Assembly: GCF_021533835.1 (NCBI RefSeq)
Contig: NZ_JAKFYQ010000003.1
Span: forward strand, 186,001 to 250,000
Source of the DNA: Synechococcus sp. Nb3U1
GTDB taxonomy: Bacteria; Cyanobacteriota; Cyanobacteriia; Thermostichales; Thermostichaceae
Length of the DNA stretch: 64,000 bases
Direction: 5' to 3'
Positions within the stretch are counted from its first letter, which is position 1, and every line of letters starts with the position of its first letter. Positions 4,243 through 63,359 of this stretch are shown in pieces. The position numbers and the translations under genes are program-made. The notes under the pieces are model-generated. The model saw only the letters and a program-made list of their open reading frames with translations. It did no database searches and was not told the DNA's origin.

Positions 4243-5238
4243 ATGGTGATGATGGTACTGGGTTGGGGATTAAGCCTACTGGGTCTGGCGCTGCTGAGCG
4301 GGATCGGCCTCTATCTGCTCAGTGCCCGCCCCTACCAATCGGCGGATTCGGTGGCCAACTCCTACGACCAATGGACCGAAGACGGCATTCTGGAGTTTTA
4401 CTGGGGAGAACACATTCATCTGGGCCACTATGGATCCCCGCCGCAACCCAAAGACTTCTTGGAGGCTAAAGCAGATTTTGTCCACGAGATGGTGCGCTGG
4501 GCTGGATTGGATCAGCTGCCCGCTGGAACACGGGTGTTGGATGTGGGCTGTGGGATCGGGGGTAGCAGCCGCATTCTGGCCCGTGACTATGGCTTTTCGG
4601 TGACCGGGATCACGATCAGCCCCCAGCAGGTGAAACGGGCGCAAGAGCTCACCCCCCCAGGGTTGGATGTGCAGTTTTTGGTGGAAGATGCCCTGGCTAT
4701 GTCTTTCCCAGACGGTAGTTTTGATGTGGTTTGGTCGATCGAAGCCGGCCCCCACATGCCAGACAAGGCTCTATTTGCCAGAGAGCTGTTACGGGTGCTC
4801 AAACCGGGCGGCATTCTGGCCGTGGCGGATTGGAACCAACGGGATGACCGACAACAGCCTCTGAACGGATGGGAACGTCTGGTGATGCGACAGCTGTTGG
4901 ATCAGTGGTCTCATCCAGCTTTTGCCAGCATTGAAGGCTTTGCAGAACTGTTAGCTGCAACCGGATGGGTGGCAGGTGAGGTGATCACCGCCGATTGGAC
5001 AGAACCGACATTGCCCTCCTGGCTGGACTCGATTTGGCAAGGGATCCGGCGGCCCCAGGGTTTTCTGCGCTATGGCTTGGCGGGATTCCTGAAATCTGTT
5101 CGGGAAGTACCCACGTTGTTGCTGATGCGCTTGGCCTTTGGAGTCGGCCTGTGCCGGTTTGGCATGTTTCGAGCAGTGCGGGCCAAGGCCTCTCCCCATT
5201 CCCAGGCAAACTCTGCCAGCTTGGCAACCCCCCTCTAA
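4243..5238 (+). CDS. 2-methyl-6-phytyl/solanyl-1,4-benzoquinone methyltransferase (MPBQ/MSBQ MT)
   Basis: SAM-dependent methyltransferase of 331 aa that closely matches, from memory, the Synechocystis Sll0418 enzyme. That enzyme methylates 2-methyl-6-phytylbenzoquinone in tocopherol synthesis, and probably the solanyl analogue in plastoquinone synthesis. An N-terminal hydrophobic anchor spans residues about 4-27. The family block SVANSYDQWTEDGILEFYWG follows, then SAM motif I VLDVGCGIGG at about 98-107, the acidic region after it, and EAGPHMPDK. The C-terminal block around VREVPTLLLMRLAFG is also characteristic. The start at 4243 follows a GAGG stretch, but ATG codons at 4243 and 4249 are close together and either may be used. 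Expected location is the thylakoid or plasma membrane. Confidence 0.93.
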   Translation: MVMMVLGWGLSLLGLALLSGIGLYLLSARPYQSADSVANSYDQWTEDGILEFYWGEHIHLGHYGSPPQPKDFLEAKADFVHEMVRWAGLDQLPAGTRVLDVGCGIGGSSRILARDYGFSVTGITISPQQVKRAQELTPPGLDVQFLVEDALAMSFPDGSFDVVWSIEAGPHMPDKALFARELLRVLKPGGILAVADWNQRDDRQQPLNGWERLVMRQLLDQWSHPAFASIEGFAELLAATGWVAGEVITADWTEPTLPSWLDSIWQGIRRPQGFLRYGLAGFLKSVREVPTLLLMRLAFGVGLCRFGMFRAVRAKASPHSQANSASLATPL

Positions 5239-5271
5239 GAAATCCCCGGCATCTTTCCCGACAGTACCCCC

Positions 5272-5642
5272 ATGCACTCCAAAACTTCCCATCGTCTTCT
5301 GGTCTGTACCACCTTCGGCTCTACCTGGGTCAATGGCCAGCGACAGGGCAAAAGCCGGGGGGAAACACTTTGGGATCATCTGCAAACCCAGCTGGATTGC
5401 CTTGACCCGGCCATTCAGATACATCCGGTGGAGTGCATGAGTGCCTGTAGCCACGCCTGTGTCATCGCCTTGGCTGCCCCACAGAAAACCACCTACGTGT
5501 TTGGGGATCTCTCCCTTGAGGACGATGAGAGCATTTTCGCTACAGCAGCCCTCTACGCCAGCAAAACCGACGGCATCCTGCCCTGGGCGGATCGCCCACA
5601 CTCAAAAAGGGGGTTATTGCCCGCATCCCGGCCCTGGGTTAA
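5272..5642 (+). pseudogene. DUF1636 metal-binding-type protein with an apparent -1 frameshift near the C-terminus
   Basis: The N-terminal about 110 residues match the DUF1636 (COG5469) family: an early CTT motif, TW-NG-RQG, and the central VECMSACSHAC and KTTYVFGDL blocks. Family members end in a K-K-G-x-x-A-R-I-P-P-L-like tail. In the current frame, reading after the run AAAAAGGGGG (5604-5613) gives an unrelated tail running to 5820. Moving back one base gives KKGVIARIPALG and a stop at 5640-5642, exactly the family ending and about 123 aa in total. This also removes the overlap with the convergent gene at 5726-6094. The run could hold a real frameshift, a sequencing error or a slippage site; the sequence alone cannot separate these. 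Confidence 0.75.
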
Positions 5643-5725
5643 AAGCCTGGACACCCAGAGCTGGATACCTAGAAACGATGCCGCGGATCCCGGCTTAACG
5701 GTTTTCCGAGTAAGGGATCCCGTTT

Positions 5726-6094
5726 TTACTGCAGGTAGGGGGTTACATCTTCCCCCTGCTCAGCCAGAAATGACAAAGCCCGAAACCGTAAGCCCGCCAC
5801 TTGGTCGTACAGGGGGTTGAGCTTGCACATGGGAGGAATGTGCATAACTTTGTGGCCAAATAGCACTACATCTCGCTCAAAGGGACACTGAGCAGGGATC
5901 CACTGACAAACCAAGTGAGCTAAATGGGGATCCCGGATTTTAAAGTTGTCGATCATGGTTCGAATCGGTCGTAACGGGGCCTGCAACCAGTCACGTAGGC
6001 GAACCGTCGACTTGAGGCGCAAAGAAGTCATGGAAACAGTCAGCTCCTGAGGAGCTTTGCGAGCACGTTGCAAGGAAATTGTTGTGGAACCCAT
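5726..6094 (-). CDS. Small protein with a Mo-dependent nitrogenase C-terminal-like domain
   Basis: Protein of 122 aa whose second half (residues about 60-122) carries the cyanobacterial Mo-nitro_C pattern: CQWIPAQCPFERDV, then a LFGHKVMHIPPMCKLNPLY block, then LRFRALSFLAE-GEDV. These proteins are named for similarity to an annotated nitrogenase C-terminus but are found in non-diazotrophs too, and their biochemical role is not known. There are no nif genes nearby, so the name should not be read as evidence for nitrogen fixation. The start ATG is preceded by an AGGTGA-like site. A 7-bp hairpin lies 21-39 bp upstream. Confidence 0.8.
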   Translation of the reverse strand: MGSTTISLQRARKAPQELTVSMTSLRLKSTVRLRDWLQAPLRPIRTMIDNFKIRDPHLAHLVCQWIPAQCPFERDVVLFGHKVMHIPPMCKLNPLYDQVAGLRFRALSFLAEQGEDVTPYLQ

Positions 6095-8476: not shown

Positions 8477-10552
8477 TCACTGCAAAACCACTTGAAAACC
8501 GATTGACCCACTCACCCCCGCCGGGATCCCATCGGGCAGAGTCACCACCACCGCTCCGTTGCGATTGGTTCCCTGACAAGCGGCAGGAACGGGTTGCCCA
8601 GCCGGGATGAACTGTGTTGTGAAATCTCGGCTGGCCACCCCAGCGATTATCACTTGGGTACTCGCCTGCAGCGGCAGTTGCGGTGAGCTGAAGGCCAGTC
8701 CCTCCGGCACCAGCACACACACTTGCACCGGAACCCGAATTGGCCCACCCAAGTTGCGAAAATCAAAGACTACCCCCCGCAACTGGTTGGCCTGCACCTC
8801 CAAAGTCGGGATCCCCTCTTGCCGGGTTTCTTGCACAATCAACCGGGCAGGATCCCAAACCAAACGACCCGCCGGGGGACGGTTGGGGGATTCTGGGGTC
8901 GGGGTGGGAGTTGGTTCAGGGGTCGGGGTAGCTGTGGGTGTCGGGGTGGGAGTTGGTTCAGGGGTCGGGGTAGCTGTGGGCGTCGGTGTCGGGATTGGCG
9001 TGGGTGTGGGCTCGGGTGTCGGGGTGGGAGTTGGTTCAGGGGTCGGGGTAGCTGTGGGCGTCGGTGTCGGCTCGGGTTCTGTCAGAGCACTTTCAAAGGC
9101 CCCGATATCGCAGGTGGTGCTAGCCGGCTGGGGACGAGTCACCCCTCTTTGGTCGAGGTTATTGATAGGGGCTGCTGCACAGATACCAGGGTCTGCGGCC
9201 TCTAGGGCGGGGCTATTGGCTACCAAGGCCAGGGTCAGAACCGGTGTTCCCGGCAGAACCCCAGCAAAGATCGTGGTGCCATTGGCAGCTAGGGTGGTCT
9301 GCAGAACCGTGGAAATAGCCCCAGTTGGCACAATGTTCCCTGCCACGGGGCAACCACCAGCATTGCCACTGACGCCAAAGACATTCTTGCTGCCGCTGAT
9401 GCTGCCGGAACATTCTTCATTGCCGGCAGAACCCGTGTTGCCAGCGATAATACTGTTGTTCACCGTCGCTGCGGTAACGGCACGGATCCCGCCGCCGCCG
9501 AAGTTTGCGCTATTGCCACTCAGGGTGCTGTTGCTCACCGTTGCGGTATTGGCACGGATCCCGCCGCCATCGAAGTTTGCGCTATTGCCACTCAGGGTGC
9601 TGTTGCTCACCGTCGCGGTAACGGCAAAGATCCCGCCGCCATAACTGCCTGCGCTATTGCCACTCAGGGTGCTGTTGCTCACCGTCGCGGTAACGGCAAT
9701 GATCCCGCCGCCATCGAAGTTTGCGCTATTGCCACTCAGGGTGCTGTTGCTCACCGTCGCGGTAACGGCAATGATCCCGCCGCCATCGTCTCCTGCGCTA
9801 TTGCCACTCAGGGTGCTGTTGCTCACCGTTGCGGTATAGGCACGGATCCCGCCGCCATCGTCTCCTGCGCTATTGCCACTCAGGGTGCTGTTGCTCACCG
9901 TTGCGGTATAGGCATAGATCCCGCCGCCATCGTCTCCTGCGCTATTGCCACTCAGGGTGCTGTTGCTCACCGTTGCGGTATAGGCATAGATCCCGCCGCC
10001 CACGTCTCCTGCGCTATTGCCACTCAGGGTGCTGTTGCTCACCGTCAGGGTGGTGCCGCTACCTGCCCGGATGCCACCACCGTCGCCAGCAGTGTTTCCA
10101 TTGCTGATGGTCAGTCCCTCAATCTCTACACTGAGGTTATTCCCAATATCAAACACCCGAACTAAATTATTCCCACTTACCTCTAGGTCGGTTGCTCCTG
10201 GCCCGTCAATCACCACATCTTCAGTAATCGTCGGTAAGGCAGTGACCAGGGTAATGATTCCTGTGACGCTGAAATCGATGGTGTCAACAGTAGGAAGAGA
10301 ATCCCCTGCTGTGCAGCCTTGCACTGCGGCATTGGTATTGGCCGCTTCGATGGCATCCCGCAGCGTACACTGCCCGGCTACAGAGCCTTGATCCAGGCTG
10401 TTCACCGTGATCGTTGCCGCCTCTGCCATTCCCGCCCACAGCACCAGTGTCGCCAGCGGGGATCCAAGCAGGAGCAACATTTTCCACCATCTGGCTAGCT
10501 GTCGCCGGTGAGACAGGGCTGGCCTGCCCGCAGAGAAAATCATTAGAACCAC
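8477..10552 (-). CDS. Exported CSLREA-type beta-helix repeat protein with Pro/Thr-rich stalk
   Basis: Predicted surface or secreted protein of 691 aa. A hydrophobic signal segment lies at about residues 25-45 (ending near GMAEAA). It is followed by a CSLREA-like domain (TITVNSL, then [11 protein letters not shown] at about 62-72), a right-handed beta-helix region, and eight 24-residue rungs with [11 protein letters not shown] and GGGI (about 156-348). A Pro/Thr/Glu-rich PTPTPEPTP-type linker spans about 489-556, and a separate strand-rich C-terminal domain of about 135 residues follows. The repeats are almost identical at DNA level, which indicates recent expansion. No cell-wall anchor or sortase motif is visible. 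Proteins of this layout are typical cyanobacterial surface or adhesin-like proteins; no ligand can be inferred. Confidence 0.82.
8885..9085 (-). repeat. Minisatellite coding the Pro/Thr-rich linker
   Basis: Degenerate direct repeats (units built around GTCGGGGTGGGAGTTGG and GTCGGGGTAGCTGTGGG on the plus strand) recur about three times between 8896 and 9065. They code [12 protein letters not shown] repeats on the minus strand. In-frame expansion would change stalk length. Confidence 0.75.
9509..10084 (-). repeat. Eight tandem 72-bp repeats inside the beta-helix gene
   Basis: Units begin at 9509, 9581, 9653, 9725, 9797, 9869, 9941 and 10013, each exactly 72 bp and each starting GCTATTGCCACTCAGGGTG on the plus strand. 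Differences are concentrated in two short windows that code the turn residues (GDD/NFD/SYG/GDV and YAY/RAY/IAV/FAV). The last unit is partly diverged. Each unit codes 24 residues, one or more beta-helix turns. Confidence 0.95.
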
Positions 10553-62465: not shown

Positions 62466-63359
62466 GTGACAGCCCTTTCGATGGCCCCAACCTTACCTCA
62501 GACCCAGCCGGCGGCGGTGGAACTGCAATCGGTATGGAAACGCTTTGGGGAGCAGGTTGCCGTTCAAGACCTGAGTTTACGGATCCCACAGGGAGAAGTG
62601 TTCGGGTTGCTAGGGCCAAATGGAGCCGGGAAATCGACCACCATCCGTATGCTGACCAGCCTCACCCGACCCAGCCAGGGATCCATTCAGGTGGGGGGCT
62701 ACGACGTGGTACGGGATCCCTTGCTTGTCCGGCAACAGATCGGGGTGGTATTGCAACCAATCACTCTAGAGGCGGAGCTGAGCGTTTGGGAAAACCTAGA
62801 GTTTCATGCCCGAATGCACCACATCCCCAACCCGGAGCGGCAACAGCGCATTGACCAGTGGCTGGAGTATGTGCGCCTGGCGGATCGGCGACAGGACAAG
62901 GTGAGAACCCTTTCCGGGGGTATGAAACGCCGCTTACAAGTGGCCAGGGCCCTGTTGCATCGACCGCAAATTTTGTTTTTGGATGAGCCTACTGTCGGGT
63001 TGGATCCGCAGGCACGGCGGCTACTGTGGGAGATCATGCGGAATTTGAACCAGCAGGGGATGACCTTGTTGGTGACCACCCACTATATGGAAGAAGCAGA
63101 AGAACTGTGTGACCGCATCGGCATTATGGAGGGCGGGCGGTTGATCGAATTGGGCAGCCCAGCCCAGTTGCGAGCCAAACATGGGGAAGCCCTACTGGTG
63201 CGTTCCCGTCCCGGACTCGAGGCCGACTACACCTTTTTCCCCAGCTTGGCCGAAGCCCAAAGGCAGTTGGAGTTAGAACCCGACAAAACCGGCCTGATGG
63301 TACGTCCTGCCAACTTAGAGGATATCTTCGTGCGGCTGACGGGCCGTCGCCTGGATTAG
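62466..63359 (+). CDS. ABC transporter ATP-binding protein (ABC-2 / drug-export type)
   Basis: Protein of 297 aa. Walker A GPNGAGKS (about 50-57), Q-loop VVLQPIT, signature LSGGMKRRL, Walker B ILFLDEPTVGLDP, and H-loop TTHYMEEAEELCDR. The D-x-L-x-x-P-S-Q-x-x-I-x-V layout and the short C-terminal extension fit the DrrA/NodI class that works with ABC-2 permeases. The GTG at 62466 with GGAG six bases upstream is preferred; ATG 62481 is an alternative. No permease follows, because the next gene is convergent with a 4-bp overlap. Confidence 0.92.
   Translation: MTALSMAPTLPQTQPAAVELQSVWKRFGEQVAVQDLSLRIPQGEVFGLLGPNGAGKSTTIRMLTSLTRPSQGSIQVGGYDVVRDPLLVRQQIGVVLQPITLEAELSVWENLEFHARMHHIPNPERQQRIDQWLEYVRLADRRQDKVRTLSGGMKRRLQVARALLHRPQILFLDEPTVGLDPQARRLLWEIMRNLNQQGMTLLVTTHYMEEAEELCDRIGIMEGGRLIELGSPAQLRAKHGEALLVRSRPGLEADYTFFPSLAEAQRQLELEPDKTGLMVRPANLEDIFVRLTGRRLD

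Follow-up and report, generated by a model that had tools for sequence, protein, structure and literature searches.

A probable frameshifted, dispensable DUF1636 duplicate in Synechococcus sp. Nb3U1

In the 64,000-nucleotide stretch of the Synechococcus sp. Nb3U1 genome analysed here (the window), we find a DUF1636 gene whose conserved C-terminal ending lies out of frame with its body. We conclude, with a probability of about 0.8, that the locus is a recently frameshifted, dispensable DUF1636 duplicate undergoing ordinary gene decay. A special frameshifting signal is unlikely, and the encoded product would be a 182-residue protein with a nonsense tail, most likely inactive or unstable.

The reading frame and its family

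The open reading frame (ORF) at 5272-5820(+) encodes 182 amino acids in its own frame (frame 0), of which residues 9-113 match positions 1-108 of the 117-position DUF1636 profile (PF07845) with a score of 99.3 bits, against a Pfam gathering cut-off of 31.6, and an E-value of 5e-28. The agreement extends as far as the dipeptide RP (5593-5598), and the body of the ORF is free of stops. The body also matches a relative of solved structure, PDB 9jn8 ('ORF378'), at E 4.6e-15; we found no paper joining 'ORF378' with 'ferredoxin'. Querying viral contigs with the DUF1636 body gave pattern matches in four stretches and no relatives. Upstream lies a methyltransferase gene (4243-5238(+)), whose stop precedes the DUF1636 start by 33 nt, and downstream a convergent gene (5726-6094(-)) with a Pfam match to the Mo-dependent nitrogenase C-terminal domain (PF06967).

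A passage in PMC4520260 ties DUF1636 to the thioredoxin-like [2Fe-2S] ferredoxins and describes three of the four ligand cysteines, together with one additional cysteine, as conserved. Five positions (12, 15, 55, 59 and 63) are conserved cysteines as defined from our own alignment, not by Pfam. The window copy retains Cys 12, 55, 59 and 63 but differs from the family in having phenylalanine at position 15 (codon TTC, 5314-5316(+), giving CTTF in place of CTTC), an otherwise invariant cysteine that is found in all 61 relatives covering the position; alignment rows start at the tblastn match, so that Cys 15 lies outside 3 of the 64 rows.

These relatives were drawn from 59 whole genomes, including the window's own (31 with a match), and from GTDB contigs (36 loci), taking one best match per locus and extending it to its stop. 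The window's own loci L002, L003 and L073 were left out of the tblastn search, as was, without need, L079. Eight duplicate loci (L001, L004, L011, L016, L085, L086, L088 and L090) were removed before the 64-row counts, among which near-identical rows may remain.

The frame is broken upstream of the A5G5 run

The family ending, LKKGVIARIPALG followed by a stop, occupies 5601-5642(+) and is read in the -1 register relative to the body. The initial annotation had described an A5G5 run at 5604-5613(+) and, after it, a -1-register ending with its own stop; the run (AAAAAGGGGG) is indeed there, and KKGVIARIPALG is read in that register up to the TAA at 5640-5642. Because the ending agrees with the LKKGVIARIPP of the canonical paralogue at the same family position, it is not a chance match. 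Where we differ is on the site of the frame change, which had been placed at or after the run. The first residue of the ending, L, is encoded by CTC at 5601-5603, upstream of the run, which itself encodes KKGV in the family frame; the break lies in the CACAC at 5597-5601(+).

Across the junction the window reads CGC CCA CAC TCA AAA AGG, so that translation in the ORF's own frame gives WADRP-HSKRGLLPASRPWVKS, with HS (5599-5604) occupying the site that holds L or I in the nearest relatives. The seven nearest relatives (six copies from the same genus and one from genome G007) have RP-(L/I)-K, versus RP-HS-K in the window. The remnant of the gene in a congener, G005, described below, has a 2-nt gap opposite window positions 5600-5601 and is without two bases of CCCACACTC. 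The window thus carries two extra bases with respect to both the G005 remnant and the codons of the nearest relatives, a disrupting lesion against orthologue and paralogues alike, although which pair within CACAC is additional is ambiguous. Given that the nearest relatives have RP-(L/I)-K and that G005 is without two bases, the simplest lesion would be a 2-bp gain within 5597-5601, as opposed to slippage at the run. Between RP and L-K, however, there are no residues in 7 of the 64 rows, two in 50 (among them G006, which belongs to the same family) and an unclassified number in the remaining 7; given these 50 longer rows, the 2-bp gain has an alternative in which a longer ancestral gene lost 4 bp. 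Either event places the lesion upstream of the run.

A family-type ending stands in frame with the body in 63 of the 64 relatives by a loose pattern, and the intact copy of G001 (L008) carries the identical run in frame. The single row without the pattern is L068, from a Nostoc sp. TH1S01 metagenome-assembled genome, whose DUF1636 frame follows the family only as far as about query residue 80. We rejected the run as an unusual feature: the window contains one A5G5-type run against 0.36 expected, and 34 of 100 shuffled sequences have at least one.

Paralogues, constraint and the same locus in related genomes

Each of the six genomes of the genus covered by the analysis (G000-G005, G000 being the window's own) has a DUF1636 copy at another place with its ending in frame; in the window's own genome this second copy is on contig C1. 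The canonical copy adjoins a TonB-dependent receptor ORF in G000 and G005. The receptor ORF of G005 (L071 1721-2092, contig C19) is only 123 residues long with a partial Plug match, compared to 654 residues in G000, and has probably been shortened by a large internal deletion. By these comparisons, we regard the window gene as an extra paralogue. It is 61-68% identical to its seven nearest relatives over 101 codons, and in a phylogenetic tree of 28 of the 65 rows it joins them (support 100/99) but lies outside them (their own split 97/87), with an end branch of 0.34; this is a single-gene tree, weak in parts, with 10 of its 25 inner branches open.

Over the same 101 codons, dN between the window copy and the seven is 0.26-0.31, versus 0.02-0.25 among the seven, while dS is undefined in four pairs and 1.4-3.6 in the other three. 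These values of dN and dS point to constraint before the frame break, and suggest that this constraint acted on the window copy during most of its history, even if the copy has changed faster than its seven nearest relatives.

At the orthologous place in G005, flanked by the methyltransferase gene on one side and the convergent gene on the other, we found an 87-nt DUF1636 fragment, stop included. Its translation is YANKPDSILP-stop-AERPLKKGGVARIPALG-stop, a single register through to the ending apart from the TAG. The methyltransferase stop lies 12 nt from the codon that matches window position 5554, compared to 315 nt in the window. The two neighbouring genes are adjacent in G002, with no DUF1636 match between them, and sit at separate places in G001, G003 and G004.

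The gene downstream of the methyltransferase gene is a second, divergent DUF1636 gene of the thioredoxin-like [2Fe-2S]-ferredoxin type. We envisage that it was long under constraint, turned dispensable because the canonical copy remained, and is probably now undergoing loss separately in two lineages.

The 0-frame tail

Beyond RP, frame 0 continues into an unrelated tail of 73 residues (5599-5817(+)) that runs into the convergent gene, as the initial annotation had held; the last 95 nt of the ORF overlap 5726-6094(-), so that part of the tail is antisense to it. By translation, residues 109-182 match G005 at 67% identity with one TAG, and residues 152-181 match G002 at 70% with no stop. Both matches are at the orthologous locus, in a region whose DNA is conserved on account of the convergent gene it belongs to.

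A reading of the 182-residue product, with its exchanged C-terminus, as a new variant that is functional would be consistent with the open ORF, with the retention of four of the five conserved cysteine positions and with the thirty tail residues that are open in G002 too. We nevertheless consider it highly improbable. The G005 and G002 matches are antisense to, or beside, the conserved convergent gene, and the G005 stretch aligned to the tail has, besides its TAG, a gap of 14 nt (window 5652-5665). The initial annotation would have been refuted by orthologues that carry the long tail in frame; among the 64 relative rows there is none.

RNA structure and alternative explanations

The 81 nt 3' of the run are predicted to fold unusually well (z -3.18, none of 200 shuffles being equally stable; z -3.64 on repeat folding, with 3 of 600 stretches drawn at random from the window reaching -3.18 or lower). 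The predicted structure spans 5619-5694(+), starting 5 nt past the run, with an outer helix enclosing an inner hairpin at 5634-5672. The inner hairpin dominates the five 60-nt folds, which were started at 5614-5626 (z -2.67 to -3.13). The distance from the run to the structure thus depends on the length folded, being 5 nt in the 81-nt fold and 20 nt, to a strong hairpin with z -2.67, in the 60-nt folds. The structure stands between convergent genes and is without a terminator-type T run; a terminator scan of 5200-5800 found none. Perhaps it is a 3'-end structure.

Such a fold is what one would look for if functional -1 slippage, ribosomal or transcriptional, at AAAAAGGGGG yielded a protein with the family ending, as 5 nt is a usual spacing for a frameshift stimulator, which would be expected about 5-9 nt downstream of the slippery site. 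Apart from the -1 register of the ending itself, the structure is the sole point in favour of this option of the initial annotation, which has little support, and we judge it very unlikely to be correct. Programmed -1 frameshifting, for example in dnaX, likewise combines a conserved -1-frame ending near an A-rich run with downstream RNA structure, but the window differs in having no usable in-phase tandem slippery site. Tandem slippery heptamers are judged by the X XXY YYZ rule; the 0-frame phasing here is TCA AAA AGG GGG TTA, which offers no heptamer that re-pairs well; at most one tRNA, that on GGG, could do so. Runs of five are short for transcriptional slippage. The aligned G005 stretch has a different, weak fold (z -1.39), and the 20-nt distance in the shorter folds would weigh against slippage. 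Moreover, the arrangement is neither found nor needed in relatives: 63 of 64 require no shift, G001 reads the same run in frame, and the G005 locus is without a gene body. Slimmer still is the chance that the mutated gene continues to make some protein with the family ending through infrequent -1 shifting at A5G5, aided by the structure; if so, long-tail and normal-ending forms would both exist.

A sequencing or assembly error in a real, in-frame gene is also unlikely. In its favour, the window lineage is represented by one assembly, and the body is open and family-like; however, what has changed is a pair of bases in CACAC and not a homopolymer count, the copy has additionally lost an invariant cysteine, G005 is degenerate at the same locus, and the open frames of three neighbouring genes all have Pfam matches that exceed the cut-offs. 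Error, recent mutation and slippage had all been proposed at the homopolymer; recent mutation is the best supported of these, with its site moved to the CACAC just upstream.

Gene decay has points against it as well. The body is open and scores 99.3 bits against a cut-off of 31.6, so the product may still be active. The orthologous comparison is limited to the 87-nt remnant of G005, with the window lineage resting on a single assembly, and the single-gene tree is partly weak. The stable fold after the run counts against decay, which does not explain it. In its broken frame and lost invariant residue the window copy nonetheless resembles a frameshifted pseudogene of a duplicated gene, as it does in having an intact second copy and, at the corresponding place in a related genome, a remnant; it differs in that its body is little decayed so far.

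The locus is not named in the titles and abstract openings among the matches listed for thermophilic Synechococcus, Yellowstone, pseudogenes and frameshifts. We suggest that it be annotated as a frameshifted, probably inactive extra DUF1636 copy; it is unsuited as a frameshifting candidate absent further evidence, and would illustrate on a small scale how a duplicate is being lost in two related lineages.

Other features of the window

The octamer GGGATCCC occurs at 88 sites in the window, against 2.8 expected (for example 367-374, 5714-5721 and 62713-62720). It is HIP1-like, and a passage in PMC4390886 reports that no other octamer is as frequent in the hot-spring Synechococcus JA-3-3Ab and JA-2-3B. 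Its abundance would place the window in a thermophilic cyanobacterium of the Synechococcus type. An ORF of 691 amino acids at 8477-10552(-) contains many near-identical repeats and a linker of the PTPTPEP type.
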